64,000 nucleotides of DNA, taken from the NCBI GenBank assembly GCA_030248295.1, contig JASANH010001202.1:124001-188000 (forward strand), given 5' to 3'. The notes beneath the pieces are model-generated. The model did no database searches, was not told the DNA's origin, and saw only the letters and a list, made by a program, of their open reading frames with translations. Positions within the stretch are counted from its first letter, which is position 1; every line of letters begins with the position of its first letter. The position numbers and the translations under genes were made by a program. This document shows, in pieces, positions 7,001 through 64,000 of the stretch. This stretch comes from Mesodorylaimus sp. YZB2_4 (Eukaryota > Nematoda > Enoplea > Dorylaimida > Dorylaimidae).

Positions 7001-9025
7001 TATTATCGACTCGAAGCCAGTGCATCTACTCAAATTCGACACTAGACCAGTCATATTCCCACCTTCCATTCCCCCATTGGAAGCCATTTCATAAGACCCC
7101 ATACTCAAGAGCCATCCTCAAACCTGAGCACCTCGTCCACAAACACCATTCATCATATGTACAAGAATTTTCTCCGCGTCCAGCCCATAATTTTAGACCA
7201 GAGCAAGGAAGACAAACCAGAGAAACCTCTCGGCATTCATCTGAGATTTCTACACTTTCCAATGCCTGTTCTCCCTCGAAACTAGGCCATAAGCTCGATT
7301 CAGCAAACTTCTTAATTCTTCTCTCACAACACAAGTCTTGGATTTGTTTTCACATACTCTTTCACTCCACACTTAAAAACTTTTTCTTGCACTGTCAACA
7401 TTCGACGCCACCTGCCTGACTCGAACCGGCTTGAAGCCAAAGGGCGGCCGACTCTCGCCCAGAGCACACAGGGTTTGAGAAAAGTTCAAAACAATGACAG
7501 AAAAACTTTCAATCACGATTCACTCGCTGACCTCGAACCGCCCTATTGTCGTTTCCGTTTTCATTTCTCAGACATTTAGACAGGCTCCAATGCAAAGTAG
7601 TTTGTAAACAAAGTCAATCATCGACATTTGTTTGGCCAGTGTGCCTGTCGGACGTGTTTTGACAGACACCTTGGCTTTGGTCAATATTGACCTACAGACT
7701 GTAAATGGTGGCGGCTCGGTGGTCAAGCCGCAAAGACCACCCGGGCTGTTGACCACTGTCCGCATACATGGTGTGGTGTCTTGCGCACCATTGATGGTTA
7801 TAGCTGTCTGGACACGCTTGACCAGGCCCTTGACCGTTTATACAGGAACGTTATGCACTGCGTGGTCATGACCATGCATCGGCCCTGGCCAGTCATTTTA
7901 TGGATACCGACCCTGACGGAGAAAGCGGCAGTCTCTTCGCCAGTCAGAAATGACGGCATACTGTAGAGTTTCGTAGTCAAATATCCAATAGCGGCCATCA
8001 CAGAAATCATACTAGAATCAGATCATCATAGTAGAAACGGCCCACAGAGGATTATGATTTAGGAACCTGAACAGTTTATGCCCTGAGTACAACACGTAAG
8101 AACAGCAAGCGGCAGGAGAATTATCCAGTGAAAAGCCACGTAGGCACGCACGGCGACCAGCACTTGCGGTCCTTTCAATTAAATAAGACCAAGTGTCTTA
8201 CTTACGTAATAAGCATGGACTATGCATTGACGATTCTCTGGCCTATTGATGCACTGGTTCAGGGAATGGTCTGCCTCTTCTAAGTCGGAGCTGGCACGAG
8301 ACCGAGAGCGAGATCGAGTGTCCGATTTGATTTGCAGGCATCGGTAGAGAACTGGTCTTGAGTCTGAACTGCTCTGTGAGCACTTAAGGCTCAGGTCAGT
8401 CAGAACCCCTATGACGGCCAGCACGTGTGGCTGCCCCAATCCCTGAATTGTGAGTCTACACGGCCCTTGTGGTGTGATGGCTAGTAAACTATAACACTGC
8501 GCGGGGTCTGTGGACTGCGTGGGGTGACTCCTCTAGCTTGAGCCATCCTGGTCAGCCCTGGATAGCCCTATGGCCAGCCACGGATTTCACTTATAATAAA
8601 GATTTTTACTATGCTATGCTATTTACTCTCTTGCCAAACACTTATCAGCCGCTCCGCATGAGAGCAAGCATAAGAGTGACGAGATACCAAAGGCAGGCTA
8701 ACAGCGCAACTATCAGGAACAAACACAGCCATCCCACTCCTTGTCCTGATACAGAGGTGGCTTTGATTTAGAAAGAGGCCCCATGGGAACGATTCTCGGG
8801 CACAAAAAAAACGTTAGCTTAAACGGAAGTCGAAGCCGCATCTCTGGACTTTTAGTCCCCAGATGCACCATTGCCACGAGGAGAACCCTGCTTGCAACAT
8901 ACCGCATGCCCACATTCATGACATGTATGCAGATTGACTGGCTGTGACCGGAAATTTGATTATGACAAACCAGTGTCTGCGCATTCATTTTAGGCCTTCT
9001 TTCTGGCTATGATTTGCCGAACCGT
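1013..9025. other. Gene-poor stretch, probably intronic or intergenic to IQSEC
   Basis: About 8 kb without a convincing coding exon. The open frames here are short, have no recognisable domain and often lack a true ATG. It may be the first intron of the IQSEC gene, whose upstream exon must lie at higher coordinates on the minus strand. A stretch near 6725-6835 reads as a plausible short exon on the plus strand (residues ELEPSTPEEIDMAEKLW) but matches no family I know. A dispersed repeat shared with 39.7 kb begins near 8275. Confidence 0.5.
8278..8592 (+). repeat. Dispersed repeat, copy 1 (about 315 bp; second copy near 39.65-39.98 kb)
   Basis: This segment aligns along its length with 39661-39977. 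Shared anchors in order are GCAGGCATCGGTAGAGAAC, a GAGCACTT...GGCTCAG block, CAGAACCCCT, GTCTACACGGCC, GAGC(C/T)ATCCT...GGTCAGCCCT and GGATTTCAC. Divergence is moderate, so both are old copies of one interspersed element. No open reading frame or RNA polymerase III box is obvious, so the class is unknown. Confidence 0.7.
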
Positions 9026-9029
9026 GATT

Positions 9030-9190
9030 GCAGCCTTGACACGGCGGTTAAGGCGTCTACCTCTCACGCTGGGTGCGCACTTAAAGGGGAGGGTTCGACT
9101 CCCACCTCGGTTCAAATTGATTGTCAATTATGTGTTCCTTAGACCTCGAGTGCGCCTCTTGGTGCTTGGCTATGGATAAAGTATGGCATG
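9030..9190 (+). mobile_element. tRNA-derived SINE, family 1 (Ser/Leu-tRNA-like head)
   Basis: The head carries a tRNA-like A box (GGCGGTTAAGGCGTCTACC) and a B box (GGTTCGACTCC), with a long variable-arm-like spacer containing CACGCTGGGTGCGCAC, as in Ser or Leu tRNAs. It is followed by a non-tRNA body ending CTTGGTGCTTGGCTATGGATAAAGTATG. The same body occurs inverted at 10081-10262. It is not a functional tRNA: the acceptor ends do not pair and it is fused to the body. Confidence 0.8.
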
Positions 9191-10080
9191 ATGACAGCTG
9201 TCTATCTCAAAAAGTGACCTAAGAAAGGTAATCAACCAAGAACAAGCACTTTTCTCTCCCGTCGTCAGCAAACGTGCCCGCCAATCAAGCTGCTGGAAGG
9301 AGTATTCCGCCCCATTTTGCATGACTCTGCATTTGACATCAATTAGAGTGATCAGCACGGTGGTCCTCAGCCTTGGTTACGATAATATGCACTGGCCTGC
9401 AAGCTGGCAAGTGAGACACACCAAATCACAAAAATACGTTCTGTATATACTGTGTCTGCTGCATTGTCTGTGATAAGGGTGGGTGATAAATCACCCGATG
9501 AATTGAAAAACGAAAAAGTGTGACATGCGCGTCCACACAACCCAAGAAAGCGGGCACAAGATTCAGGCACGCACACTCCTTGGACTTTGCTTCCACATTC
9601 TATCTTGTAAGACCTCACTGTTTTTAGGCCCTTACTAACACCCTTGGTACGAGGCCGAGGCCGCCCGTATCAGACCTTTTGAGGCTGATTCTGTAAGCCC
9701 ATGAATTGTAGTTGATAGAAACACAAAAGGCGATGATACATTGAAGCCTTTCGGGAAAAATGTATCGTCATCTTCAAACAGCGGAGAAATCTGAATTCTT
9801 GGAGGAATATCGATATTGAATATTGATCATACTACGGTTAGCAGTGCAGAAAGTCGACGGTTTATGCATCATCAGTACGGTATTTGAAAACTTTTACGTC
9901 TCTCTCATCGTCAGGTCAAAGACTCCGCTTGCTTTTAGCACAAGACTAGACGCCTTGTATTTTATCCCAAGGCTTGCAGCGGGTTGGGTCTGGTTATAAA
10001 TACTCGCATACAAGTGCTTGCGTGCTAGTCGCCAACCCCAAAAATCCAAGATCGGCACAGCAATAACGCGCACCCTGGGA
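9191..10080. other. Intergenic stretch between two SINE copies
   Basis: No coding exon, RNA gene or recognisable repeat was found between the two SINE copies. Confidence 0.4.
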
Positions 10081-10895: not shown

Positions 10896-12392
10896 ATGAC
10901 TACACAAAAATTGTTGTTATTGTGGACATTTTTCGGGGCATGGCTTTACTGTTTGGCAACAGGTGGGCGCAATCAGATTTTGATTACACACAATGATTCT
11001 TTTCCCTTTCCCTGCAGACTCGGCCATCAACAGCACGGCTGATCCTGAACAGCGTCTCTAAGACTTTTTATTCACCAATTCTGGTTATAATAAGAACATA
11101 AGGCCTGGCGGAATCAAAGATGGTGTGAAGCAAATGTTGGAGATTAATGTGTCATTTGCGCCCTATAGAATCGTGGACATAGTAAGTACCTGCAGAACAG
11201 AACACTCTGCGTCGCATGCTTATATATAGTTCCATTTCACCCGTCAGGATGAACAATTGGAGACTATGTCAGCCCTGGTCATAATCGTGCAAACCTGGCA
11301 GGACAAGCGCCTTGTTTGGAACCCAGCCGAGTACGCGAATAAATCAGCGCTCATGGTTCCAGCGGACACTTTGTGGATTTCCGAGCCCCATTTTCCCAAC
11401 CTGTACGCCATACTTTTGTAGATCCTTTCTGTAAGAGGTTGACCATACATTTTTTCAGCTTTATTTTAAACCCGACGACAAATCTGCGGCATCCAGTGTC
11501 AGGATTTCAATGGACGAAGGGAGTGAGCGAGCAGCCAAAGTTTCAACCTTAAATTTAGTTCTTCTACCAGAGCGCTGCACGTTCGAAATGCTGTATTTCC
11601 CATTCGACAGGCAGAAATGTAAGATATGCATCAATGCACTGCAATATTGGGCAGACGAAGTGTCTTCCAAAAGTGAACTGTCAATTGCCAGTTCACTTTT
11701 GAGTAAAATAATTGATGGTGGAGAATGGGATCTCGAGAATGCGACTGTTTTTAACCCGCATCCTCAAACATTCGCCTGCTCCTGTGTGGAAATAACTGCT
11801 CGACGCCGATCCCTGTACTACGTCGTCAACTTATTCTTCCCAACCATCATCATCTGCGTCTTGAACACCATCAGCCTATTTGCGAGTATTGAGGCTGATC
11901 AGAGCGAGTTGGACTTTGCCTCATTGGGTCAAACAACTCTCTTGTCTCTTGGAGTACTAATGCTGCCGGTGGCCGACCAAACACCCAAGGGGTCAGGTCA
12001 GGTGTCACTGCTTGGTAAGCTCTAAACAATTATACAGTTCAAGTAGGTTTTTGATGGAGGTTAGGCTAGGCGAGGAACCAGATCGTGAATGCTGGCTTCA
12101 TATTAGCTAGCAGACCCTGACATTTTGGCATTTAGGCATTTTCTTCTTGGCAATGATCTGCCAAACTTTGCTGGCAGCCTTGACTGCAGTTTATTTGAAA
12201 AAGTGGCAGAAGCAAAGTGACCAACCAAATAAACCACGATTTTCGCCCATAGTCAAAATCACCGACAATCGTTCAAACTACCAGAGAAAACATGTTGTGA
12301 AATTTTGCATGGTCTCGCACTTGCTACTGATATCCTTGATCAGCACTGCCGTCTTTATTCTTGGATACAAGAACAAGTCTGGCAGGGGCTGA
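10896..12392 (+). pseudogene. Cys-loop ligand-gated cation channel, probable pseudogene (member A)
   Basis: Five exons follow the family plan: 10896-10962 (signal peptide), 11018-11181, 11248-11402, 11459-12014 and 12136-12392 (M3, short loop, M4). Exon 4 has the 13-residue Cys-loop (C-TFEMLYFPFDRQK-C), the DGGEWDLEN block, M1 and an M2 with ASLGQTTLLSLGVLML. Two lesions break it. In exon 2 a TAA (about 11063) replaces the Ser codon of the paralog at 56.3 kb. At the start of exon 4 one base is missing in ACCCGACGAC relative to the paralogs; the exon is 556 nt, where the other members are 2 modulo 3. M1-M4 are otherwise well preserved, so inactivation is recent, or the lesions are assembly errors. 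It is tandem with the gene at 13951. Confidence 0.7.
11668..11701. repeat. Perfect 13-bp inverted repeat inside exon 4 of member A
   Basis: Arms CAAAAGTGAACTG and its exact complement are separated by an 8-nt loop. They encode the SKSELSIASSLLSK stretch, which has no close counterpart in the paralogs. It may be a local templated insertion. Confidence 0.7.
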
Positions 12393-13189
12393 AATTGCAG
12401 GGTAGAATTCAAAATGGAAGGGTTTTATTAAGATATACATACCTATTGTGCATACGTCTGGAACGAAGTTCGCATTGGCGCCACCTTGTGTGCGTGTGCA
12501 GGGACTTGGGTTTTATATTTGTGTAAAGAGCAAAGCGGTCGTTAACGTGTATTTGTGCGTTAGGGCTGATACATGGCTATACTATATGTGATTTATCACA
12601 TATAGTATAGCCATGGGCTGATAACTGTGTTCTTTTCGGGTTTTAGCTGGCTTTGGGAACGGTCGGCTGTGTAAGTGATTGTAAGAATAGAAAATGGTCT
12701 AGCAGCGTAGTATATATTACGATACGTCTCTAACAAGAGCGTAGCTCAAGTCCTCATATTTGTGTTAGTGAAGTCAAGCCTTTACGCGATCGTAACGAAG
12801 GCGTATTCGCTACAATTCAGTATGCAGTATCCTGTACAAATACAGACTTTCGACTCAAGCTAAAATGTCATGGCTTTAGGAGTTAATAGCCACACTATCC
12901 TGCCCTACACAGAAAGTTATTGATGAAGCCCCGTCGACAGCATGAGTGTGAATGTGTTCACCTCTAAAGTATAAGCATCGCAAAGTTAGTCGACGTGGGA
13001 AATACACTTTTTTCCGACAGCAATCGTAGTATTCTTATGTCGTAGGTACCCCGTATACTGTACTCTCAGAAAGCAAGGGCATACATATACGTAGCTGGGG
13101 CTGTTTGGGCAAGGGCTGGAGAAACGGTCGCAAAGTGAGAGCCTTCAAACTCATCGGAGACGACCTGTGTGTCGTGTATATTCGCAGAT
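12393..13189. other. Intergenic between Cys-loop member A and the LINE relic
   Basis: Contains a perfect hairpin (12572-12615). No exon was recognised. TACTGTA-type heptamers recur. Confidence 0.4.
12563..12623. repeat. Perfect 20-bp hairpin bounded by 9-bp direct repeats
   Basis: Arms CATGGCTATACTATATGTGA (12572-12591) and the exact complement (12596-12615) flank the loop TTTA. The hairpin is bracketed by GGGCTGATA at 12563-12571 and again at 12615-12623, sharing one G with the right arm. This looks like a tiny palindromic insertion with a target-site duplication, or a fold-back mutation. It lies about 180 nt past the stop of member A. Confidence 0.8.
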
Positions 13190-13950: not shown

Positions 13951-15482
13951 ATGAGCAGACGGGCATTGGCTCTTATCTGCATTCTGGGCTATGCATGGGT
14001 CGACAATGTTTTGGGTAAGCTGTTTGTGAGCTCAGCCGAACTGGCTACGAGAGTTGACTTCTGTCGGGCAGAAATCCCCTATTCCTGCCCGTCATCGGCA
14101 ATGGGTGATGACTGCTGATGGCTACCATTTTTAGGTTCTAAGGAAATCATCGTCGATAGTGAGAAGCTTCTAATCGACCATCTTCTGAACAGCTCCTTTT
14201 ACGACAAGAACACGAGGCCTGGCATGATGAAAAATGGGGTCAAATCACCACTGACAGTATCCGTGGCATTCGCTCCACATCGAATGATTGATGTCGTATG
14301 AAGTTCTCCTGTTTTCTACCACTCCAGGACCATTGACAGTGACTTTTTAGGACGACCAACTGCAAACCATGTCATTGCTAACATTTATTCGGCAGCAGTG
14401 GGACGAGGATCGGCTCTACTGGAAGCCAGAAGATTTTGGAAACAAGACGAAAATCCCAACAGCGGCGGACAATTTGTGGATTTCACGCCTATATCTACCA
14501 AACATGTGAGTCATTTAAGACCCGCCTGTGAAGTAAATGCCCCACTCTTTTTAGATTTATTTTTAATCCGGAAGATAAGTCAGCCACATTTGATCCTTAC
14601 ATCTTCTTGGAAAATGAGAACATAGCAGAAGCCAAGATCTCCCTTCTAACTTACGCCTACTTGCAAGAACGGTGCAAATTCGACATGGCATATTTCCCAT
14701 TCGATTTGCAAACCTGCGCCATCTGCGTTTTCGCTGGACAATATGGTGCAGATGAGGTGATCTTGGATGCCGCAATGTTACCATACAACGTGTTCGTCGA
14801 TGGTGGAGAGTGGGATCTCGTCGAAGCAAGTGCTTTCAACAGCCTGCTTCTTGCTGCGTATTCTGGGGCTTGTCTCAAGATCACCATCCAGCGTCGATCT
14901 ATTTATTACATCATCAACCTGTTCCTACCGACCATCATTATTTGTGTCTTGAATGCGGTCAGCCTATTTGCAAGCATTAACGCTGATCAAAGCGAGCTGG
15001 ACTACGCGTCATTGGGTCAAACAACGTTGCTATCATTGGGGGTTCTGCTGTTAACCGTGGCTGACCAGACACCCAGGGGAGAAAGCAGTGTGCCGTTGAT
15101 TAGTAAGTCAAATGATTGAAACAGCTTTCTCATTCCAGAAACCTGCACATCCGCTTGCTTAGGAGTAGAGTCCCCATTGGCATCGGCTTCACGATGCATA
15201 TGGAAAACGTCTATGCTTTTTAGGCATCTTCTTTCTTGCCATGATCTTTCAAACATTGCTCGCGGCGGTGACAGCTGTGTACCTGAAAAATGGCACAAAG
15301 CCGGCGCGTCAACAACTTCTGCTTTCTCACCAATCGTCAAAGTCAATGTCCGACAATTAAAGTTGAAGAAGCACTGTGTCAACATATGCATGGCACTGCA
15401 TCTAGTACTGATAGCGCTGATTAGCGGAGTCACGATAGCCATCGGAAATGCCAATAAGCGTCCTGTGATAACTGCTGAGTGA
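13951..15482 (+). CDS. Cys-loop ligand-gated cation channel (member C), single-base frameshift before M4
   Basis: Exons are 13951-14014 (signal peptide, MSRRALALICILGYAW), 14135-14295, 14351-14505, 14555-15102 and 15224-15482. The joins keep frame through the extracellular domain, the Cys-loop (C-KFDMAYFPFDLQT-C followed by AIC), DGGEWDLVE, M1, M2 (ASLGQTTLLSLGVLLL) and M3. At about 15286-15290 a run of five A replaces the six expected from paralogs (LKKW...). As written, translation stops at 15358-15360 and M4 is lost. The downstream frame still encodes an intact loop (AFSPIVKV) and M4 (ICMALHLVLIALISGV) to the TGA at 15480-15482. Because everything else is intact, a homopolymer sequencing error is as likely as a young pseudogene. 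Confidence 0.7.
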
Positions 15483-41562: not shown

Positions 41563-41752
41563 GTACAGTATTTTGCGGACTCATGGCGGGAATTTCAAAT
41601 GAGACATTTTGCATCTAGGGAAACTATCCCCGCGTCTGCTCAAAGCGTTGTAAACTTTACACTGTGGTCAATTCACACCCATGGAGCGTCAAGCGATCAG
41701 AACCTTGTTCGACGCCTTCGCCCGTTCTTCCTCTCCAGCGTAGCTTCCAATC

Positions 41753-46915: not shown

Positions 46916-47432
46916 CCCAATCCTAGGTCTCGTTTCGCTCACTCGCTCTCCGACTTTTTCACAGTTCGGTTGCGAAGGCAAACTGTTTTCTCTCGGCTGT
47001 ACCCAGCCTCGCTATACGTCGTCGGTACTCTTTCGAGTTTACACGTCTCCTTTTGATTCCGTATGAGGTACGAAATGAGACTGGGCGTTTTTGCAAGGAG
47101 GCGCTTTCCTTACAAGGGAAATCCTTAGTCACTTCTCTTTATCCAACCAGATTGTTTATGGCCCCAAAGGAATTGATGATTTATCCACCCTCCAGCGGAA
47201 ATGCAACAGCGCACTCCCACTTCCTATTTTGATGGCTGATAAAGGGGGACCCTGGCAAGATTTATGTATTTGTCAATACCTCTTTCTTAGATGAAAAGCC
47301 AAAGCCAGTTTGCTTTCTTTGCTTGCATTTCCTACTCGCCCTCCCGCCCTTCCTATGCTGTGCTGTGAGTGCATAGCATTTTCCATACTCACCAACTCAA
47401 AATTTTCTGTTTTCTTTTTAGATTCATTCCAA

Positions 47433-50747: not shown

Positions 50748-53711
50748 TCAATGGGCGCGTAAATTAAGCTTGTTATTATACCCGACTGCGAACACGACTG
50801 TAGTGGCCACTGCTATGAGCGACAACTGGAAAATCATAGTCACTTTCACAGCATGCCTTCTCCAGAAACTTGACCGAGCATTTGCCGTGGTAACAGAAGA
50901 GGTTTCTCTTTTCTCGTTGCGTTTATGACATTTTTTCAAGTAGATTGCCATCAAGGTTGCTTCCAGTGTTTGGAGAATCATGAATAGGAAGAAACTACCT
51001 GAAAAACAGCGATGTACAGCAGGTACCCTAAATCAATAGATCAGTGAGCTGGCTGTCCTGCAAAGACACTGCTTTATGAATATTTGACTCCAAGCGAGGA
51101 CCCCATACTGTATATCAGATAAAAAAGCACAATGAGATCCCGCATGAATAAATATATCCGTTTTTTTCAAGGCGAAAACGAGCCATACTCACTTAGCATT
51201 GAAATTTGTCGTGCGCCTTTGGGCGCTTGATCAGCGACTGTCAATAAGAGCACACTAAGCGCCAGCAAAGTGGTCTGACCCAATGAAGCAAAGTCAAGCT
51301 CGCCATGATCGGCATCAATACTGACGAACAGACTGATGGTATTCAGCATGCAGATGATTATTGTGGGTATGAACAAGTTGAAGAAATAATAGAGGGATCG
51401 ACGTTGCGCTGTGATTTCCAGGCAAGCCCAGCCAAAGTCAGTTACTGATTGGTTGTAAACTGTGACGTTCTCTAGCGTCCACTCGCCCCCTTCTCGGAAT
51501 GGGTTGTTGTTCATATACTGGACATTGAGGATTAGCTCTTCGCTTGTATACTGAGTCGTACTGATGCACAAAACACACGTTTGCCGGTCAAACGGGAAAT
51601 AGGTCATATCGAATGTGCAACGATCTTGAAATATAGCATATGTAAACGTGCTGACTGTGGCCGCTTGCGTTTTCCCATTTTCCATGTAAACTTCTGCGTT
51701 AAATGTGTCTGCTTTATCATCCACGTTCATAATAAACCTAAAAAAGATGACGTACTGTAGAAAACAGCTTAGCTTTTAAAGTAGATGGGTTAAAATACTT
51801 TGGAGTGATTACAGTGTCTACTGCAACGCCTTCCTGTTCCTACCATACCTACATTTTGACAAATATTGAAGCATTATTTGCCAGCTTACAGCGCGCAGAG
51901 GTCCCTCCGCAGGTAAAGACAGGCGGCTAGGAGCAGACTTGTATGCTTCCGGCATGGACCCCATGGCGTAACGTTTCTACGTCAGGTCAACGTTTAAAAT
52001 TTCTGCATGGCATTTTCCTCTTGTTTCCTTTTTCTACAATATATCCTCAAGGATCTTCTCAAGGACAAAAGTTACAGGTACATAAAATTGTTGTCTGATT
52101 TTAAACTCATAATGTCAAGTCAGAAAACCAATAGGAGCGTACATGTTTGGTATGAAGGGTCGAGGTGTCCAAATATTAGATGGCGGTGTTAGAAACGACG
52201 TCTTGTTCCAAAATTCAACCGGATTCCAAGCAAGTCGCTCGTCCTTCCAAACGTGTTTGATAAATACGACCAGGGACATCGTCTCAAAGTTTTCATTCTA
52301 CACGGGGAAAACTGGTTTGAATAGGGCGCCTGAGACTGCTTATTGGGTGTCTATGGTCATTGGCTAGTTGCTATCCCATTTCCAGATGACTACAGCCTAC
52401 AGACTACAGTCCTAGTTCCAGGTATTCAGCCCGTGGTGTGGGTGACTGGGTAAGGCGTCTGTTTCTCACGCTTAGCGCAGTTACTGGCGAATGTTCGACT
52501 TGCGGCCGTAAATCATTTTCCGTTTTTTCGCTTCCTTTTTCGAGCTAAAGCCTGGTTTGTCTATGCCGGCCAGCAATCAAACCTTATAAGCAAGCTGTGA
52601 GGGACCAGCGCACACAGTAGCGTCCCCTTGCGTGTCTCCCCTAGGAGCACCTCCACACAGGGGCATCCTGGACCAGACATCGGCTACATCGGAAGATGGC
52701 GGGCGGGCTTCGAACGTCGGTGATCGACTCTCGAGACTGTCTCCTAGTTTGGCTTCCGCCTCTCCACTCGGAGCACCTTGAGAGTACCTGTGTAGTTATG
52801 GTTCGCAAACCGACCTCTATCTCCGGGGTTCGAACCCGGGACGAGCCCAGCAATACGGGCAGACGAATGCCGAGCCGCCTCACCGCCGCGACCATACGTG
52901 TGTGATGTGTTTCTTCACGAGTGCGGCTTTGGTGGTGTAGTAAAACATAAACATAATTAACAAACCGAATCTTGCGCATCTGTTATTGCCACGTCGCCTG
53001 TGATTCTGCTACGCCAAAGATCGAATTTACCTCAATGCATACATTTGCCAGCCACAGAAATCTTATTGCATGCGCGCATTATAGTCGGGTTGCTAGCGTC
53101 TACAATAAGACCAGCTCTTGTGGTATGGCTCGTGCCCTGGTGACCTACAGGGCCGGGGGCCTGGGGACCTGCAGGCGTCCGCCTCTTAATCCAGCTGCGC
53201 AGTTACCCTTTCACCCTCGAGTGCATTTGTGCTTGGTGATGTGGTGCGTAATGAACATGATGCGGATTTAGCGCCATCACTTACGACTTCAATTATTCGA
53301 AACAGTCCAAAGGCAACTGTAACTTCGAGCGGTAATTTTACGCCGTTTTTGAAGATACCAGGTCGAATATCTTTGTCATAGGATGAACTTTTTAGTAAAA
53401 AGTCAATAAGTTTCTTTTCTGGATCCGCAGTACTGTTACTGACTCCTAAAATGCTAAGCCACTGTACCAATATCTTACACATAATAATGAAGCCATCGAA
53501 TATGTTGCCGGCATATGCCTCCAATGGGCATGTTTGTGGATTCACGACAACTCTCAACATAAAGTCATATAAGTGATACCATTCTACTGAACAGTATATG
53601 ATGGACTGAGATCAAAGCGGAAAAGAAACTGTTACCTTTAGTCCCATTGCAAATGCTGATAAAAACCAGAATTTTAAAGATCAACTTCAAATTTAACTGT
53701 TGCACAGCCAT
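50748..53711 (-). CDS. Cys-loop ligand-gated cation channel (member E), intact, 395 aa
   Basis: Exons on the minus strand are 53711-53636 (signal peptide MAVQQLNLKLIFKILVFIS), 53445-53285, 52297-52143, 51737-51193 and 50998-50748; all phases agree. The ligand-binding domain holds SSSYDKDIRPG, ENFETMSLVVF, WKDERLAWNP and the Cys-loop (C-TFDMTYFPFDRQT-C then VLC). It ends with GGEWTLENVTVY and WACLEITAQRR. M1, M2 (ASLGQTTLLALSVLLL), M3, a short M3-M4 loop and M4 (MIFQLSLIAVATTVVFAVG) follow. The Asp at -1' and lack of a Pro insertion suggest cation selectivity. No vicinal Cys pair, so it is not a classical alpha subunit. Intron 2 (987 nt) has taken up two SINEs. Confidence 0.88.
52431..52535 (+). 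mobile_element. tRNA-derived SINE, family 1, in intron 2 of member E
   Basis: GACTGGGTAAGGCGTCTG, then CTCACGC...GCGCAGTTAC, a B-box-like TGTTCGACTTGC and GTAAATCATTT. It matches the copy at 55.84-55.95 kb read on the other strand. Confidence 0.65.
52600..52905 (-). mobile_element. tRNA-derived SINE, family 2, in intron 2 of member E
   Basis: Inverted relative to 32544-32925. On the minus strand it has GGCATTCGTCTGCCCGTATT, B box CCCGGGTTCGAACCCCGG, AGATAGAGGTCGGTTTGCG, GTGGAGAGGCGGAAGCC and GCTCCTAGGGGAGACA. It is in the same transcriptional orientation as member E. Confidence 0.75.
53120..53260 (+). mobile_element. Degenerate SINE, family 1 tail
   Basis: CTGCGCAGTTAC, then CCTCGAGTGCATTTGTGCTT and GGTGATGTGG match the family 1 body. 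The tRNA-like head is badly decayed. Confidence 0.4.
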
Positions 53712-55167
53712 CTCGTCATATTTGGAGAATAAACAAGAGTCTAATCTTCATGAAGCTTTCCTGATAACCTGGTATCTCGATCGAAAAAGACAGACTTCTA
53801 CTCAGAAATCCATGCTTATACTATAGCTACTGTAGATTACAATAGGCACAATGATTACCAGGCTTAGGTGAAAAGTTGACAGCTAATATCATAGCAGCAA
53901 TTCATCAGTGCCCAATGAGGGAGCGCTTGATAAGTCTCTATCTGCTGTAGCAAACTCGACTGTATCCTGCCCCCTTCCCAGCCTTGTAGTACGGTAGGAG
54001 TTGACAGCGAGAAGAAAATATACCATTGGGTCTTTTCCATTCGATCACGCAAGAACAAAGGACGATGAAAGCAAGAATATTCCGAGCAAAGACTAGAATA
54101 TACCCTTCCTGGTGTCAGAAGAGAAACAATCAATGTTAGCTCCTGGCGACAGCATGTTTGACCTAAAGACCCCCGCCTACCTCAATTCGTCCTAGTAAGC
54201 CAGGCTACCGCAGACATTTATGATTCATGAAGTCAAGAGAACTGACGTACATAGCAGAGGAGCCAACAAACAGGAAGTCGATTCCGAATGAGGGATAAAA
54301 TAATCACGTCTTCTAGACCCCGTAGTCACCATTTAAGATCACAAAGTCAGTCTTCTAGAAAACCAAGATAATGAGTTTTCTCGGGACACTCCAGTGACAC
54401 AAAAGGATAGCTTTGACGACCGACAGCACATTATTTTCTTCGCATAGTAAATGTGACATTTTCAGAAGATTTGTACACGTCGGATATCAAGAGGAGTTCA
54501 AATACTGTAGCAAAATCGAGGAGCAAGTCGGAAACCAGTGCGGGTAGATTTGGCCGAATCAACAGCCCTAAACCATTTTAGCTTGTCTAAAAATCCTGTC
54601 AGCAGACTTTTTTTGAGGTAAAAGTTATATTACAGCAGTAGTGGTTTTATGACGAGCCAATATGTCGTGATGCTTTAGATGGGGAGCAGAAAATACGTGC
54701 TCTTTGGCTGTTTTGCATGTTCCATCAGCATACTCGTGATTTGGGACACACTCGCAGTCCTTTCTCAGAACATGTAACTCAAAAAGGTTTGAATCGTTTC
54801 GAATGTCCCGCCCTCAATGAAATAGATTCTCAGCCTTGGACCTGTTTGAAGTTGTGTCCCGCTGTATGAGTTGGTCTATGACAATCTTTCAGCTTCTAGG
54901 ATTGCCTAGATCCCAGTATTTTCATCCTGATTCCGCTATAGTTCCAATGCGGTAGTGTACCACGTTCCTACGTACCGCGTAGAAACCACTGATTATAGGA
55001 GAGAGGGCAATACGATAAAAGTCCTATACAGTCAGTTGGTCACTCAGGGTTGCTGCGGTGACAAATCAGCCATACTCTTTCGCTTCAGTGCTAATTTTAC
55101 TGTAATTAAGAAATGGGCGCAGTAATGACGAGACCTTTGATGCGGGACGGCGGATTCCACGGATGCC
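53712..55167. other. Intergenic between head-to-head Cys-loop genes E and F
   Basis: Members E (minus) and F (plus) are divergently arranged, so both promoters should lie here. No TATA box stood out. The end of this stretch (about 55113-55160) shares GGGCGCAGTAATG and a GGCGGATT block with 55507-55560, a short local duplication. Confidence 0.4.
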
Positions 55168-57624
55168 ATGAAAATGCTATTGAAATCTCTGTTTTTCTGG
55201 CTCGTCGTATACCTTATTCCTTGCTGTTCAGCTTCAGGTACAGTAAGTGATGCTCTTATGAAAATAAGCTTTGACTACATGCAGTACAGCTGCTGCCTCT
55301 ACAGACAGCCGTCTCTTAGACAAATCGTCAGGATGACACACCAGGTCACTTTTTGCATGTTGAACGAGCCATCATGGTAGCATAGCTAGAAAACCAGAAA
55401 ATTTTTTAATCAACGGAGTGTTTCTTCAAGGACACAACATCACGTGGGCATGTGCCTGTGATGTTTCCTCCTTGAAACGATACCAGAGGGCGCACTGTTA
55501 TTCATAAATGGGCGCAGTAATGGCAGGATCTTTGACGCGTGATGGCGGATTTGGCCTGATGCTCTTCAGCAAATGCCAGGGAGAAAAGATGCTGTAGTCT
55601 CTCTCGCATGACTGCCTTTTCAAAACCGCAATCGCCACCAAATGCTCTGAGCAGGTCATCCGAGAACCCATGACCGTGATTCTCAAACTCACCCAACAAC
55701 TGACACACAAAAACTTACTTCTAAACCATGATCTGCATTGACGATATATTTTACTGCACAGTGTACATGCCATGTCATGAACAATGTTCATGTTCATGTT
55801 TTACCAAACGCTTATGCGCACTCGGGGGTGAAGGGACACATTTTACACGAAATGATTTACCGGCCCGCGAGTCGAACACTCGCCCGTAACTGCGCACCTG
55901 GCGTGAGAGGCAGACACCTAACCCACCAGGCCAATCCAAACACCAAGCATCCCTGAAATTCATGCAAGATCTAAATTAGTCCCGCACGTTTAATTGTACC
56001 TCGCATATTGCCAGTTGCATGACTGCCTTGGATCACTGAAACATAAACAATTTTTTGTTTAGAAATTTATAAGCAGTGCTTGACAGAGTTTTTAAAAACC
56101 AGCCACGTAATTGGTTTTCTTCCATGAAAACCTTGCTGAAAGTTTTCGTCTATTTGTGTTCGAGTACTGCTCGAGGAGTCACACTTGTCACTGTGGGAAA
56201 TAGAATTCACCGATGATGATGCACTGGGCTAATGATACTTTGACCATATTTGACCGAAACACTTAGCCTGGGTGGTGGTGCATCAAAGGTGAGTCCGTCG
56301 ATTCTGAAGTCAATATTTTAGGTACTGCGAATACAAGCATTGCTGATCCAGAAAAGCGCCTCTCTGACTTCTTATTCAGCGGATCCGACTACGACAAGAA
56401 TATCCGCCCAGGTTTTGTCAAGGATGGTAAAAAAGAGCAGCTTCGGATATCTGTAGTATTTGCACTTCATCGAATTGTGGATGTAGTGAGTATACTACCA
56501 ATCGTTTCTCTGCCAGGCAATGCTTGACGCACTCGATATTTCCCCTTATATAGGACGAACAACTAGAAACCATGTCTATTTTGGTCTTCATCAATCAAGA
56601 CTGGCTTGATGATCGTCTCGTATGGGATACGAGAGACTTCGGCGGCATCATGGAATTTATGACTCCCGCAGATAACATATGGATTCCACGTTCCTATTTG
56701 CCGAACATGTGCCTGTTCTTGGCTGCGGAGTCGTTGTCCTCATTCTTTAATGATTTTTTTTAGCTTCACTCTGAATGTCGATGATAAGAGAGAACACTAC
56801 AACCCAGTGATCGCCATGGACAACATGAGTGTACCAGCAGCCACAGTCAGCCTGACTCAATACGCCTTCCTGCAAGAACGCTGTCAATTCGACATGACCT
56901 ATTTCCCTTTTGATCGACAGCGCTGTCAGTTTTGCATTCTCGGAGTCCAGTACCCCGCTACAGATGTGATCTACGAGGCAAAATACACAGCCGCAGACGC
57001 GTTTATCGATGGTGGAGAATGGGAACTTGAAAAGGCAACGGCTAAAGATGTCGAATGGGCCGCAACTACCGCGGCATGCCTCACCGTATATGTCCAACGT
57101 CGCCCTGTCTACTACATCGTCAATCTGTTCGTCCCCACAATCACTATCTGCGTCCTGAATACAATCAGTTTGTTCGCAAGCATCGACGCTGATCAGAGCG
57201 AGTTGGACTATGCATCGTTGGGCCAAACAACGCTCCTGTCGTTGGGCGTCCTCATGCTGACTGTAGCCGACCAGACACCCAAAGGATCTGGTCAAGTTTC
57301 CTTACTCGGTGAGCGCTGTACTTGTCACTTTCAGCGGGAAGTAACAGGCATCTCCTTGCAGGCATCTTCTTTCTTACCATGATTTTCCAAACACTCCTGG
57401 CGGCTTTGACGGCAGTCTATTTGAAGAAGCACCATAAACATAGTCAGCAAGTGCATACATCACCGTTCTCTCCCATCGTCACTATCAAACCCGCCCCTGC
57501 AAACTGGTGGAAGAAAAACATTGTAAAGCTTTGCATGGGCCTTCACTTGACCATGATATCACTGATCACTGCGATTGTGTTTGCTGTCGGGTATGCGAGC
57601 AGGCGCAAGACCATTGCCAGCTGA
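55168..57624 (+). CDS. Cys-loop ligand-gated cation channel (member F), intact, 398 aa
   Basis: Exons are 55168-55237 (signal peptide MKMLLKSLFFWLVVYLIP), 56322-56485, 56554-56708, 56764-57308 and 57362-57624 (399 codons with the stop). The first exon is the least certain. The ligand-binding domain has SDYDKNIRPGFVKDG, DEQLETMSILVFINQDW, IWIPRSYLPN and the Cys-loop (C-QFDMTYFPFDRQR-C then QFC). It ends with DGGEWELEKAT and ACLTVYVQRR. M1 (YYIVNLFVPTITICVLNTI), M2 (ASLGQTTLLSLGVLML), M3 (GIFFLTMIFQTLLAALTAVY), a loop of about 35 residues and M4 (HLTMISLITAIVFAVGY) complete a full-length channel. Its last exon is nearly identical to the gene at the right window edge. Confidence 0.88.
55840..55948 (-). 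mobile_element. tRNA-derived SINE, family 1, in intron 1 of member F
   Basis: On the minus strand it reads GGCCTGGTGGGTTAGGTGTC, CTCACGCCAGGTGCGCAGTT, then a B box GTGTTCGACTCGC and GGTAAATCATTTCG. Antisense to the host gene. Confidence 0.75.
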
Positions 57625-57977
57625 AGGGCTGTGGTATAAGGCATAGACCAATAGTAATTGCCATCAGAATCTGTCGATGCGGATAAAAAGTATAATGCTA
57701 TTGCTACAGTATACTTCCCAGCATGGAAACTCCAAGGGGCCCCACCGTAAAGAATGGTATTAAGATTGGTTGATAGTGGTTCATCAGACTACTTGCTCCA
57801 GCATAATCAAATTTGTATATGTGTTTTTGGACGCCAATTTTCATCATGGGCATCTTTCTTTCTAAGGTTTATGTACAATCATGATCTCCTCAGAACGTGC
57901 ACACGTATGTCTGGTACTGTCTAATACTAGTACATTTTCTTTGTCGGCACGTCGACGCGCTGGCTAGAATTATGCAC
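57625..57977. other. Intergenic, 3' of member F
   Basis: No feature recognised. Confidence 0.35.
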
Positions 57978-58110
57978 AGACTGCAGTGACAGGTCGGCGA
58001 TTTATGGTTTTTACAAACTGACGTCCGTGGATGGGAATTGAACCCTCGTTGAGCCCAGTCGTTGCCCATCAAGGAGTAGCGGAATGGCGCAACATTTTCG
58101 GCTTTGCAGC
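57978..58110 (-). mobile_element. tRNA-derived SINE, family 2 (partial)
   Basis: On the minus strand, GGGTTCAATTCCCATCCACG, GACGTCAGTTTGTAAAAACC and ATAAATCGCCGACC parallel the family 2 B-box and body. Confidence 0.6.
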
Positions 58111-58306
58111 CAGTAACCTGTAGTATCTGCATTCTTATAGCTTTATTTTCTACGAGACTAAGTGGAGTAAGACTGTTAGGCGAAATTACAAATCGACGGC
58201 ACATTATCACTTATCTTAGAGATTGATCCAAGGATTCTTTTAAGCCCCTGAATCTTTAGAGTGTCACAGCGATGTGGTGCTTGACCTTTCCAGGACATCT
58301 GACCTT

Positions 58307-60145
58307 TCAGCTAGCTGGCGCCTTACGCTTATTTTCATACCCGACTGCGAGCACTACCATGCTGGCCACTGCTATCGCTGCTAACAATAAGTGCAAGGTC
58401 ATGATCATTTTCACAGCATGTTTTTTCCAAAAACTTTCACGAATATTGATATCTTCACGATATTGACGCCAGAGTTTGGAAAATCATGAACAGAAAGAAA
58501 ATGCCTGAAATATAGACTGGTGCCATTGAGCATCTGCTGAAGTAGCCTAAAATCTGCCTGGCCATGCCTGCGTGAGGCTTACCAAGCAACAAAACGTGCC
58601 AAGCGCCTTCAAATGTCTGGTCGGCCACCGTCAACATCAGCACACCCAACGACAACAATGTAGTCTGACCCAACGAGGAGAAGTCCAGCTCGCCATTATC
58701 GGAACAGACTGAACGTGTTCAGGACGCAGATGGTAACAGTGGGAATGAAGAGGTTGACGACGTAGTAGAGAGAGCGACGTTGCGCTGAGATATTAAGACC
58801 AGCCTAACTCAAACCATGGTATGGTATATTGTTGTGGGAGAGGGAAGACCGTCGTCTGCTCCAGTGTCCACTCTCCTCCTTCAATACACGAGCTCGAGTC
58901 ATGGCATTCCGCATCGTCTCCAGTTGTTCGTCCTACAGAAAGGTAGAATTTGTTGAAGAGACTTTCCCTTCTCAGCACATTGCACGATTGTGAAGCACCT
59001 ATCTGGCGAGCACCATGTGTCGAGCTCGATAACCTCTTCAGACGCGACACTGTTACCGCAGGGCGTTTCGAAAGGCCCTTTGCGACTTACAGGTTTCCCT
59101 GATCTGACACGTATTAGTGCGAGAGACCCTCCCCACGTCATATCGACATATGTATACTATCATCTGTATACAGCATGTTTCATGTGTGCACGCTTTGCCA
59201 TTTTCCTTTCAAAGGTGACTGCGCGGCCGCGAACACGTCCATTCACAGTATTTGTGCATTAGTTTCGGGAGAGTATGTACTATGTAAAATTTAAAAAGAT
59301 ACAGAAGTGATCACCTCCGTGTCTTCTAGCATGTCTGCAGGCTGTGGGTTCATCCTGCAATTGCGCAATACCCAAAAATGTCTGATAAGCATAGTCTTGA
59401 AAAGACAAACAACCAATTTTTGTCACCACTTCTTTCCTACCTCTCAAAAGTGAATTTTGGTCTTTTCTGTTCATCTTACTTTCTTTTGCTAAGCGAAGGA
59501 AAGTCGGGCTGTAACGGGACAAAATCTTGGCTGCCCTAGAGCTACGTCATTGTGAAACTTGAGGTCACACATTCCTGGCCTGCTGTGAGAGCCTGCGTAC
59601 GCACAAGGTGCATCGGAGGACGCAATAGATGTGAGCTTGGCAGGACTATTCTGCATGCACCATAAAGCATCCGCACTTTTTGGTACAGTATTCTTACATT
59701 CATGGAATCAGGGTAGCAGTATCCAACTCGTAATAAGTGTTAATGAGACGTCAAACCGACGGGTTGCTCCCGCTATGCCTCCAACTGTAGTGCGTACCTG
59801 TGCAGGGTTTTGTCATCTGGGCCTGCCTTGCACCTACTGTGTCCACTGGTTATACCAGTTATCAAAGGTTAGTTGGGCTGATAGATAAAAGTGTGCCCTT
59901 GGTCAGGGTCGGGCTGTACTTCTTCCAGGTGCAGTGCGAATAAAGACTGTGTACACCGCCGCCTAACATGTGTGCTCTTGGCACGCAACTTTACCTGCCA
60001 CGCCAACAATTCGAAACAGTGCGAATGAAACTGTAACATGTAAGAGTAGTGTCTCGCCGTGTTTTATGAAGCCCGGTCGTATTGTTTTGTCGTAGGATGA
60101 ATCCTTTACAGTTAAACCACAGGCAAAGTTGGTAAACCTTTAACC
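58307..60145 (-). pseudogene. Cys-loop channel pseudogene (member G)
   Basis: Recognisable minus-strand pieces, in order, are: an exon 2 relic at about 60145-59998 (KDSSYDKTIRPGFIKHG, VSFALFRIVGV); the start of exon 3 at 58932 (DEQLETM), which runs straight into mid exon 4 (IEGGEWTLEQTTVF); M1 (YYVVNLFIPTVTICVLNTF); a deletion that removes the M1-M2 linker and shifts frame; M2 (MGQTTLLSLGVLMLTVADQT); and M3 cut after IFFLFMIFQTLA. After another deletion come M4 (HLLLAAIAVASMVVLAVGY) and a TGA at 58307. The whole Cys-loop is missing. The family's extra Cys before QRR is also lost (GLNISAQRR). Several independent deletions make this a clear pseudogene. Confidence 0.8.
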
Positions 60146-60886
60146 TTCAATTGGGCACGACTCCGTGAACTGCCGTGAGATGCAAACACTTACCCGCTAA
60201 ATATACTGTATGCTGCAACAAGTCCAAAAATGAAACAGGACAACCGAAAAGTAACACCTTCGTCCTTTCATCTCGCCAGCTACAGAACGCTGCAAAAAGC
60301 CAAACTGCAATTTTCTTTTCTGATCTACAGGCAGAATACTGACAAGCCATCATCATATTGGGTCAAAGCCCGAATATGATGAAGATTGAAAAGGCTTCGA
60401 AGCATATGCAGTATTTGTGCAATGGAACTGACATAAATTAGCAAATCAGCAATGAGCATTTAGCAATGAGCTTTTGAAGAAATTGGACAGTTGTTGGAGC
60501 CAATATTGTTATTGAGTTAGTTATTGGCAATATGCAAAATTAGCAATATAAAAGGACTGTGGGTATTCATGCATGAAAGAAGATCTTTGCGGGCAGCCAG
60601 GGTTTGTAAATTGGTAAATGCGCTGTATTTACAAGAGTAACTTGTGGGGGCTTATCCGAGGAAGAAATATTTGAGAAGCGTGGTCTTACATTGATCATGT
60701 AAAACACAGTGATTTCGTGATTGCAGTGTTAGTAAGCAAACTGTTTTCAAACCACGAGCCTACTGTATTTGCCGCGCATCGCACTAACGTAGATACTGGT
60801 AATAAATATTAGATCAATGAATGATCATAGGATCATGAGGATTATGGAGCTCATGAGAGCATGGTCTCGCCAAAAGAGCGAAGTTG
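60146..60886. other. Intergenic, no supported gene
   Basis: The stretch between the pseudogene G relic and the 3' end of member H. AT-rich; nothing recognised. Confidence 0.35.
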
Positions 60887-62784
60887 TTATTGCAAATCAG
60901 GCTTATGCTTCCCTGCAAAAACCCCATTGCCGTATCCCACAGCGAATATGACTGCACTGGCCAGCAAAATCAGCATTAAGTGCAATACCATGTTCATCTT
61001 CGCAGCATATTTTTGCCAGAACCTTGATCGGCGATTGGAATTGAGATGAGCACCGTCTGATGGCATTTTGCGTTTGAGCCATTTTTTCAAATAAACTGCT
61101 GTCAATGCTGCCAAAACGGTTTGAAAAATCATGACCAGAAAGAAATTGCCTAGAAAGCAAATTAATGACGTGACATTGTCTTATTGTGCCAGCCAAGTCA
61201 ATTTTTATATCTGCATTCCACGTCCCCACCAAGGGCCAAGTAACCCGCGACTTACCTAGCAGAGACACCTGACCAGCTCCTTTAGGTGTTTGGTCAGCCA
61301 CAGTCAACATGAGGACTCCTAACGAAAGCAGCGTTGTCTGTCCCAGAGAGGCAAAATCCAACTCGCTCTGATCAGCGTCGACGCTGGCGAATAAACTGAT
61401 CGTGTTCAAGACGCAGATGGTGATGGTGGGGATGAAGAGGTTGATGACATAGTACAGTGGTCGTCGAAGAACTGTTATTTCTAAACAAATTCTACCAAAA
61501 TTGTGCGGGTCATGTGGCCTGTATGCAGTTGAGATGTTCTCCAATTTCCACGCTCCGCCGTCGATAAAACGAGTTAGGTTTACAGTGCCGCTAACAAAGA
61601 CAAAGTCTCGTGCAGTGTATTGCCTAGCAGTAATGCACATCCGGCAGCGTTGCCGATCAAATGGAAAATATGCCATGTCGAACGCGCAACGGTCTTGTAG
61701 GAAAGCATAAGTGAGAGTGGTGACGAGCGACCCCTCGTCCTTTCCATGCTCCATTGAAACTGTTGCATGAAACGTGTCTGCTTTGTCCTCCGCGTTAAAA
61801 ATGAATCTGAAACACTAGTCAATGAACAGATGCTTTCATTGCTTTCATGCTCTAGTGCCTCTCAGCACCCATAGCGTAAGTATTTACTTGGGAGCAAAGT
61901 ACATAAGTTAGTGATATGAGATATGCGATATGAGAAGTAAAGCAAGCAAAAAAACTTACATGTTTGGCCAATAGGGCTTTGGCGTCCATATGCGATCTGA
62001 CTCCGTCAGGAAAAACGTCATGTTTCCGTAATCATCTGGATTCCACACAAGTCTATCGTCCCGCCATGTTTGCTCTATGTTCACTACCATTGACAGAGTC
62101 TCTAGCTGTTCATCCTGCCAAAGTGAAAACTATTGGCCTCTATATTGTACCTCACTGTCTTCGTAACTTAGGGCGCTTCTGATTCAAAATTGTTGCAGCC
62201 TGACTGCTCAATATGTACACTGGCGGTATTGTGGCGGAAATACTCGATCCTCGTCTGGCAATCGATCCTCACGATTGCCAGACGAGCTCTACAGTACAGT
62301 ATGGAAGATTTCGAAGGGTTCGACCCCATGGGGACATAGTTATAGAAGAGGGATACGAGTGAGATTTACAGTGCCCTACCTAGTGTAGTACAATGCAATA
62401 GGCGTGGACTAGCTCCCACGCCTATCACACTCTGACCAGAATTGTGGCCTATTCTGTATTGCCACAACTTGATGTCAATGCACAAGGTATCTGATACGCG
62501 GGCTCAGTAGTCGAACTGTACTTACCACGTCAACAATTCGATAAGGGGAAAGGGCAACTGACACGACCAGTGGCAGCTTTATCCCATCCTTCACCTGACC
62601 TGGTCGTACGCCTTTATCGTAGGTCGAATTTTTAAACAAATAGTCGAGAAGTCTTTTTTCGGGATCGCTTGTGCCTGAATGATACCATGACGCGTATGTC
62701 TTTAGGCCCAACAGGAAAAACTCGCTTACCTATCATACCAAAGGGAAAAAAATTTATCAAAATGAAAATGATCAAATTATGCAT
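60887..62784 (-). CDS. Cys-loop ligand-gated cation channel (member H), intact, 390 aa
   Basis: Exons on the minus strand are 62784-62730 (signal peptide MHNLIIFILINFFPFG), 62674-62526, 62114-61960, 61806-61256 and 61149-60887 (391 codons with the stop). The ligand-binding domain has NSTYDKGVRPGQVKDG, DEQLETLSMVVNIEQTW and the Cys-loop (C-AFDMAYFPFDRQR-C then RMC). It ends with FIDGGAWKLENIS, where Ala replaces the family Glu, and ICLEITVLRR. M1, M2 (ASLGQTTLLSLGVLML), M3, a short loop and M4 (HLMLILLASAVIFAVGY) follow. The intron positions match the other members. It is transcribed leftward, toward pseudogene G. Confidence 0.88.
62250..62286. repeat. Perfect 15-bp hairpin in intron 2 of member H
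   Basis: Arms CTCGTCTGGCAATCG and the exact complement with a 7-nt loop (ATCCTCA). Confidence 0.75.
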
Positions 62785-63766
62785 TTTTCAGCCTTCAACA
62801 AATCTTTGGCGTGGCGTTGAAAATACACATAGTACCATGCCCGCTGGTCACGCTACCCTGAAGACGTACATATTTGAATGCGCGATTTTCTCTTTCACCA
62901 AATGGCCAAAGGGCAGCTCATAATTCGAATGCTATGTACTATCACTGAAGTTCTATTCACGATCAGGTGCCGGTGCATTGAGTGAAAACAATAATGAGTT
63001 CATCATGGGATGCATTTCAAATAAAGATAAGCTTGGTTAAACAAATTTTGTTAATGGACCTCTATATCGATCGTAGTTATCATTTCAGCAAGAACGATTA
63101 CCCTCGGACACATTGCAACCAAAAGAGGATGACAGTTTAGTGCGGCAGACTGCTAGTAATTCTCGTGATATCGGTCCTTTTCTGCTTACCAATCGAAGCC
63201 CACCAGGTCAGTCCAGCACAGAAGTGAGTGAACTGTTGTGCCTCTCACAAGGGGTCATCGCCAAACGTTAGATCGAAATTGACAAAACCTATTTATTCCT
63301 AGTGCGATAGAAAGCTGTGGAAAATATTGGATCTATCTTGCAAGCTGATGAGCAGCTACTAGCGCCTACATCCACTCGATTTTCGACTTTTTGTGTTTTT
63401 ATTGTGGACTTTTTGTGGGTGAGCTCGAGTGTTAACGGTCGGCGACATATAGCCTTTTGCAAGGCGAAATTTGGCCTTCCTTTTCTAATAAATACAGGAA
63501 AACAGTAAATCAGCGCGAGTGTGAAGAGGAAATCTTGACTGTGGCTTGCACCCAGTTCAAAGAGCTCTTTTTTACTGCTGTGAAATCGCATGTTAACAGT
63601 TTCTCTCGCGATCCATTAGCATGCCGTCTGATAATCCGTAATCTTAGCTCTTACGTCCTTGGAGTATTTGCTCGGATATGAGATGTAGCAATAGCAACTA
63701 CTTTTACTTTTTATCCGCGTCGACACATTCTGATGGCAAGTAACTATGCACTCTTATATCTGCACT
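62785..63766. other. Intergenic between Cys-loop members H and I
   Basis: No exon recognised. It should contain the promoter of H and the 3' flank of I. Confidence 0.35.
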
Positions 63767-64000
63767 TCAGCTTGCACTGGTCTTGTGCCTGCTCGCATAC
63801 CCTTCAGCGAACACAATCGCAGTGATCAGTGATATCAAGGTCAAGTGAAGGCCCATGCAAAGCTTCACAATGTTTTTCTTCCACCAGTTCACAGGAGCGG
63901 GTTTGATGGTGACGATGGGCGAGAACGGTGATGTATGCACTTGCTGACTACGTTTATGATGCTTCTTCAAATAGACTGCCGTCAAAGCCGCCAGGAGTGT
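63767..64000 (-). CDS. Cys-loop cation channel (member I), last exon, cut by the window edge
   Basis: The minus strand encodes the end of M3 (TLLAALTAVYLKKHHK), the loop (SPFSPIVTIKPAPVNWWKK), M4 (GLHLTLISLITAIVFAEGY) and the stop at 63767. It differs from the last exon of member F by only a handful of bases, so the two are a recent duplicate pair in inverted orientation. One change puts Glu in M4 (VFAEGY for VFAVGY), which is unusual inside a membrane helix. The rest of the gene lies beyond 64000. Confidence 0.85.
   Translation of the reverse strand, partial: TLLAALTAVYLKKHHKRSQQVHTSPFSPIVTIKPAPVNWWKKNIVKLCMGLHLTLISLITAIVFAEGYASRHKTSAS

Follow-up and report, generated by a model that had tools for sequence, protein, structure and literature searches.

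The receptors of the DEG-3 group are described, in the parts of the reports cited, as nematode-specific and include ACR-23, the target of monepantel (PMC2936538, PMC11377560). In the section of the ACR-23 report used here, betaine is contacted by Tyr116, Trp178, Tyr222, Tyr229, Trp78 and Cys224; the substitutions Y116A, W178A and Y222A nearly abolish betaine currents, and replacement of Trp78 by alanine leaves about half (PMC11377560). The chemotactile receptors of cephalopods show, in the passages cited, that a transition to chemoreception is possible (PMC11526382, PMC10338036). Here we describe a stretch of 64,000 nucleotides (the window) from the nematode Mesodorylaimus sp. YZB2_4, C88:124001-188000 (C88 being contig JASANH010001202.1), in an assembly of 145.1 Mb and 1067 contigs. 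The window and the adjoining part of the contig hold channel genes that resemble acetylcholine receptors, in a local cluster of which about half the members are dead. Stated most safely, the family consists of predicted cation-channel subunits without most of the acetylcholine/betaine cage. We consider it reasonably probable, from the sequences, that these subunits descend from the DEG-3 group, have lost the canonical cage, and form cation channels opened by another ligand and not by acetylcholine, choline or betaine, or else act as partner subunits.

The genome was searched with 106 residues of exon 4 of one member (gene F), and C88 was also searched exon by exon. The exon-4 query gives 45 matches genome-wide, of which 17 cover almost the whole query with at least 53% identity. 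The copy count that an earlier reading of the window (the initial annotation) had called for puts the family at 21 members or more, of which 15 lie inside a 76-kb part of C88 (A, B, C, E, F, G, H, I, J, K, M, N, O, P and Q) and six lie on five other contigs (L017, L018, L023, L024, L026 and L027). This is a lower bound, because fragments outside C88 that lack this part of exon 4 would escape the search. In ten members the frame is open wherever it was read (E, F, H, I, J, M, Q, L024, L026 and L017); each of the other 11 is either broken or a fragment (A, B, C, G, K, N, O, P, L018, L023 and L027), with sequencing error a possible cause where a broken copy has a single lesion. Q is the most divergent member, with 39-45% identity to the other full models. 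The initial annotation had described an expanding family of compact, cation-selective channels with inverted and dead copies, assignable to no named receptor class; the family is real, expanded, compact and predicted to be cation-selective, with inverted copies and 11 of 21 members dead, but its separation from every named class is not supported.

The assignment to a class begins with the domains. In the two members scanned, F and H, the ligand-binding domain Neur_chan_LBD (PF02931) scores 111.4 and 108.0 bits against a curated cut-off of 26, while Neur_chan_memb scores 29.8 bits in F (cut-off 28.1) and 27.1, just below the cut-off, in H. Both cysteines of the C-x13-C Cys-loop are present in all 15 aligned family rows. 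In a PDB search, the best two of the 323 distinct sequences under the threshold are C. elegans DEG-3 (E 5.4e-39) and DES-2 (2.5e-35), followed by vertebrate nicotinic acetylcholine receptor (nAChR) chains, with ACR-23 among them. The exon-4 place of gene I gives 70.9 bits to DEG-3 and 43.5 to alpha-4. The genome abounds in DEG-3-like sequence: with DEG-3 as the query it yields 81 exon-level matches, a number that includes the family and more distant receptors. The closest solved relatives are thus DEG-3 and DES-2, with ACR-23 also counted among the closest characterised ones, and the trees place the family beside DEG-3-like genes of the same genome, so that the family does have a named class near it.

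A tree of 41 rows was built on the region from the Cys-loop to membrane segment M3, with 15 family rows; C, G, K, N, P and L023 were left out of the tree and alignment as fragmentary or out of frame. The family forms one clade (support 100/100) whose stem is long (1.56) and whose sister is L034 of the same genome (98/89), and it is nested in a 24-row group with the genome's own DEG-3-like genes (99/95). DEG-3, DES-2 and ACR-23 fall in a wider group with support of 88/72. A topology in which the DEG-3-like rows are held together without the family is rejected (p-AU 0.016), for a group that was named after the tree had been seen and that involves long branches. When six rows (fam_Q, fam_L027, L030, L032, L036 and L046) are removed, the family still groups with L034, L035, L037, L033, L038 and L054 (92/99). 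The phylogeny suggested in the initial annotation, drawn with own-genome and reference rows, thus puts the family near the DEG-3 group, but the group as a whole has only the 88/72 just given.

The exon plan points the same way. The 155-nt exon 3, bounded by AG and GT, is found in nine of 14 DEG-3-like loci of this genome (it was not seen in L035, L037, L041, L053 and L054), and the donor between exons 4 and 5 lies at the same place in 13 of the 14 (all but L040). The plan was considered as a signature of the family and rejected, because these paralogues have it too and it is not family-specific. By this comparison the 155-nt exon is inherited from the DEG-3 group. The PDB search, the tree and the exon plan together place the family on a long branch that lies next to the DEG-3 group of nematodes or inside it. 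It resembles the group in its best sequence matches, in the exon plan of the genome's DEG-3-like genes, and in the acidic residue at -1' and the pore motif LGxTTLL...DQxP. It differs in having neither the YxCC of loop C nor the loop B tryptophan, in the loop A tyrosine (mostly Pro) and loop D tryptophan (mostly Phe), in a loop C that is 4-6 residues shorter, in new cysteines in strands beta 7 and beta 10, in the short loop between M3 and M4, and in the length of its stem branch.

The residues of the agonist cage were compared with ACR-23, for which the numbering of the aligned segment reproduces Trp178, Tyr222, Cys224, Cys225 and Tyr229. Trp178 of loop B is replaced in all 15 family rows (by Thr, Val, Arg, Ala, Gly, Leu or Met), and the vicinal cysteines 224 and 225 of the YxCC motif are absent in all 15. 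The span from W to P around loop C is 29-31 residues, compared with 35 in DEG-3, DES-2, ACR-23 and human alpha-4. The place of Tyr222 is occupied by a residue other than Tyr in 14 of 15 rows, two of them with Phe, in a part of the alignment that is uncertain because it lies beside a gap. In the ten intact models, the loop A tyrosine of DEG-3 and DES-2 is replaced throughout, as is the loop D tryptophan (seven Phe, one Tyr, one Asn and one Leu). Of the features of alpha-type nicotinic subunits, YxCC is therefore lacking in the family, and the aromatic box formed by loops A, B, C and D is incomplete. The sister sequence L034 already has Asn at the place of Trp178 and still keeps the vicinal cysteines, so the loss of the cage was probably stepwise. 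The vicinal cysteines are also missing from L030, L032 and L036 (contig C178), a DEG-3-like trio on another long branch, and from the nicotinic-like L046 and L055 and the DEG-3-like L038; their loss is thus not rare in this genome. The best PDB match of L036 is DES-2.

Two positions carry new cysteines. A cysteine stands three residues past the Cys-loop, in beta 7 (Thr174 of ACR-23), and a second in beta 10 (His233 of ACR-23), each in all 15 family rows; the first is present in none of the 22 other rows that cover the site, and the second in none of 26. Of the members left out of the alignment, the pieces of K and P show both cysteines by eye, and L023 shows the second. Across 13 aligned exon-4 sequences, broken genes included, there is no variation in the Cys-loop, in the new cysteines or in much of the pore. 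The beta 7 site is that of Lys145 of muscle alpha-1. Where beta 7 meets beta 10 (in muscle alpha-1, Lys145-Asp200), the contact is regarded as a link from the binding of agonist to gating. A disulfide between the two strands would be the natural reading of the co-conservation. A cysteine pair placed at this contact offers a direct test of the loop C motion that a Cys-loop receptor needs. None of the literature matches listed describes a double-cysteine, short-loop-C, cage-less family; as far as those listings show, this branch would be new, the superfamily and the DEG-3 group being already known.

The pore reads as cation-selective. The initial annotation had read Asp at -1', Leu at 9' and Asp at 20'. 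Leu 9' and Asp 20' are present in all ten intact members (in Q with one inserted residue before 20'), whereas Asp at -1' is found in only eight of ten, the other two having Glu. The pair Pro-Ala at -2'/-1', which marks anion channels, does not occur in the alignment of the ten intact members. From this combination of acidic -1', Leu 9', Asp 20' and no Pro-Ala, cation selectivity is a sound inference by homology.

In the explanation we prefer, the cluster would encode subunits of pentameric cation channels, descended from the acetylcholine/betaine receptors of the DEG-3 group. The sequences themselves show the relationship, an intact Cys-loop and pore, candidate signal peptides, a cage with most of its residues lost, a loop C that has been shortened, the invariant cysteines of beta 7 and beta 10, and local duplication accompanied by frequent loss of copies. 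The two new cysteines would be bonded and tie the strands beta 7 and beta 10 together, taking over from the flexible loop C with its vicinal cysteines. The channel would then be opened by another ligand at the remodelled interface, or work in heteromers with DEG-3-like subunits of the same genome that keep the vicinal cysteines; an excitatory cation pore would be retained in either case. As the acetylcholine-binding residues are gone and a new cysteine pair is present, another signal is probable.

Several observations weigh against this explanation. The monophyly of the DEG-3 group relative to canonical receptors is weak (88/72), and the reduced tree leaves the group as a whole unseparated from them. 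The cage is not stripped of all aromatic residues: the place of Tyr229 is still Phe or Tyr in ten of 15 rows, and the loop D place is Phe or Tyr in eight of ten intact members. A short loop C is not unique to the family, as the nicotinic-like L046 of the same genome has a span of 27 and no vicinal cysteines. The dead gene G, as it reads, lacks the beta 10 cysteine. The disulfide is proposed from co-conservation, and the AlphaFold model of exon 4 is too poor to use (mean predicted local distance difference test score, pLDDT, of 49). Finally, EAT-2, a non-alpha nematode subunit of the nicotinic cation type that likewise has no vicinal cysteines, is still gated by acetylcholine, though it keeps Trp149, according to the part of the report cited (PMC7173930). 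EAT-2 is described in the same part as keeping most of the aromatic box, with Trp149, Tyr197 and Trp54 (PMC7173930), whereas the family lacks the counterparts of Trp149 and Trp54, EAT-2 itself not being among the aligned sequences.

A rival reading takes the genes for chemoreceptors. F and I form an older inverted pair, 79.5% alike over 1494 aligned columns, with a nonsynonymous divergence (dN) of 0.099, a synonymous divergence (dS) of 0.462 and dN/dS of 0.21. The ratio is 0.10 in the membrane part and 0.25 in the ligand-binding part; the encoded amino acid differs at 53 of 217 codons in the latter and at nine of the 158 others. Taken region by region, dN amounts to 0.015 in transmembrane segments 1-3, 0.312 in loops B-F and 0.383 around loop C, and dN/dS is 0.05, 0.35 and 0.72 (22 codons), respectively. 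The concentration of change in the binding loops (dN 0.31 and 0.38, against 0.015 in the membrane), together with the loss of the cage, the local expansion and the dead copies (11 of 21), would fit putative chemoreceptors derived from a neurotransmitter receptor, an explanation that we regard as rather unlikely. No region of F/I, the only pair measured by region, reaches a dN/dS above 1, the highest value being the 0.72 around loop C, which counts against chemoreceptors. Faster change of the extracellular part is moreover common in the Cys-loop superfamily, and this too counts against them. The parallel would be with the chemotactile receptors of cephalopods, an expanded channel family which, as summarised in the passage cited, diverged from nicotinic receptors, lost acetylcholine binding and expanded in octopus (PMC11526382). 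They belong to another phylum, are likened here by description, and are marked by expression in sensory cells and by gating through poorly soluble molecules; for the present family the sensory role is a proposal. The stronger proposal, that a nematode turned a DEG-3-type acetylcholine/betaine receptor into expanding ionotropic chemoreceptors independently of cephalopods, with the site rebuilt on the short loop C and the beta 7-beta 10 disulfide, appears unlikely on the sequences at hand. A branch that drops the cage but keeps the pore would show that the DEG-3 group can be re-aimed at other ligands, like the nicotinic receptors of cephalopods.

As an alternative to a new ligand, the genes could encode non-alpha partner subunits, unable to bind agonist as the principal subunit, which assemble with DEG-3-like subunits that have vicinal cysteines and tune conductance or placement; we regard this as rather doubtful. 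Suitable partners exist, with at least ten DEG-3-like sequences carrying YxCC in the same genome (L033, L034, L035, L037, L040, L041, L050, L051, L053 and L054), two of which, L034 and L035, lack the loop B tryptophan in spite of their YxCC. C. elegans DES-2 expressed heterologously on its own gives no functional channel, according to the portion of the report cited (PMC4258610), which favours this reading. Against it, the tryptophan of the complementary face is replaced as well, in all ten intact models (seven Phe, one Tyr); many copies and many losses would also be unexpected for an obligate partner. That the family is mostly decaying, with little function left, is suggested by the 11 broken members but is very improbable in view of the ten whose exons, where read, are open and whose checked introns are GT-AG, of the F/I dN/dS of 0.21, and of the invariance already noted across the 13 exon-4 sequences (Cys-loop, both new cysteines, much of the pore).

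The cluster has grown in part by inverted duplication. The order C-A-B (+) in the window matches the order M-K-J (-) further along the contig. A is an inverted copy of K, which is broken in exon 4 (84.1% alike over 1569 aligned columns, dS 0.157); B is an inverted copy of the intact J (87.1% over 1736, dS 0.147); and C is an inverted copy of M (two pieces, 79.3% and 67.5% alike). The similar dS of A/K and B/J, about 0.15 in each, makes it probable that a single block was duplicated in inverted orientation and that each arm then suffered some decay. The window arm has A, B and C broken; the other has K broken and J and M intact. Haplotigs were considered as the source of the inverted copies and rejected, because the pieces are 67.5-87.1% alike, lie on one contig, and include two pairs with the same dS of about 0.15. 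These values (0.157, 0.147 and, for F/I, 0.46) do not agree with copies described as freshly duplicated. Many dead copies lie beside intact ones (11 of 21), but the rapid turnover proposed earlier is supported by no dated event, and even the youngest of the three measured pairs differ by about 0.15 in dS. Only F/I, B/J and A/K give an informative dN/dS, since in the remaining pairs dS is above 2 or undefined. Within F/I, dS is 0.26 in the membrane part against 0.62 in the ligand-binding part, a difference that may be due to gene conversion. Expanded nAChR genes of molluscs offer a partial comparison: in the part of the report cited, 33 of 132 oyster nAChR genes are alpha-type, and molluscan genes lie in tandem arrays (PMC6896357). 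The tandem arrangement and the predominance of members that are not alpha-type are shared, whereas the molluscan genes tend, in that account, to be intronless and retroposed, and the present family keeps the introns of its DEG-3-like relatives.

Ten gene models were spliced by hand (E, F, H, I, J, M, Q, L024, L026 and L017) and checked at their introns from exon 2 to exon 5. None has an internal stop, exon 3 is 155 nt in all ten, and GT-AG borders are present at every intron checked (three in nine models and two in L017, which was read from exon 3 onward). Gene E is intact at 50748..53711 (-), with candidate exon 1 at 53636-53711, exon 2 at 53285-53445 (or 53442), exon 3 at 52143-52297, exon 4 at 51193-51737 and exon 5 at 50748-50998; its exon 2 has two possible acceptors, the second placed by eye, and measures 158 or 161 nt. 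Gene F, intact at 55168..57624 (+), has a candidate exon 1 at about 55168-55237 that would encode a signal peptide, its donor a guess since no listed candidate is in the right phase, followed by exon 2 at 56322-56485, exon 3 at 56554-56708, exon 4 at 56764-57308 and exon 5 at 57362-57624. Gene H is intact at 60887..62784 (-), with candidate exon 1 at 62730-62784, exon 2 at 62526-62674, exon 3 at 61960-62114, exon 4 at 61256-61806 and exon 5 at 60887-61149. Exon 2 measures 164 nt in F and 149 nt in H; in E, F and H, exon 4 measures 545, 545 and 551 nt and exon 5 251, 263 and 263 nt. The plan given in the initial annotation is thus borne out in these three genes (exon 2 149-164, exon 3 155, exon 4 545-551 and exon 5 251-263 nt).

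Between F and H lies the dead gene G, 58310..60106 (-), with exon 4/5 pieces at 58310-58875 carrying stops and frame changes; a piece at 59999-60106 that resembles exon 2 may also be part of this gene. At the edge of the window, 63767..64000 (-) holds the end of exon 5 of gene I, which is intact in the contig (exons 2-5 at C88:187767-189097). The last 13 kb therefore contain five members, as had been noted: E, F and H intact, G dead, and I cut by the edge only and whole beyond it. The two disrupted members placed at 11-15 kb are likewise as described, gene A (10896..12395, +, outer ends approximate) having a stop in exon 2 and gene B (13951..15476, +) a frame change in exon 5. All copies named earlier are found, and one had been overlooked: fragment C, 8997..9386 (+), broken and consisting of exon 5 only. 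Intact I, J, M and Q lie in the 24 kb adjoining the window. Candidate first exons with a signal peptide, judged from hydrophobicity and splice sites with no signal-peptide program, are present in E, H, I, M and F (donor uncertain, as above) and, by alignment with B, in J; those of A, B, K and Q are weaker. The M3-M4 loops are short, as had been stated, at 28-34 residues in nine of ten intact members and 47 in Q within limits set by the analyst, which is somewhat below the 35-50 first given.

The remainder of the window and genome yielded minor observations. A tandem repeat with a 47-bp unit (24.6 copies, 95% matches) occupies 35416-36580, with long minus-strand open frames running through it. 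At 47295-49712 (+) a single open frame of 806 residues contains leucine-rich repeats and an Ig I-set domain (Pfam), and at 41744-42274 (+) there is a Major sperm protein domain (E 9.6e-9). The stretch 27663-29185 (+) encodes CCHC zinc knuckles (PF00098) followed by a frame with SATFP, the latter frame having no Pfam match; we take the SATFP motif to suggest a Vasa/GLH-like helicase. A search for the SL1 leader, with at most one mismatch allowed, did not find it. Elsewhere in the genome there are 27 matches to the transthyretin-like TTR-52 family, a marker of nematodes, and an 18S stretch was read. On contig C73, a COX1 copy (L009, L011) is open under the invertebrate mitochondrial code inside a contig of 488 kb, with further COX1 matches close by on the opposite strand; either mitochondrial DNA has been inserted in the nuclear assembly, or the contig has been joined wrongly.

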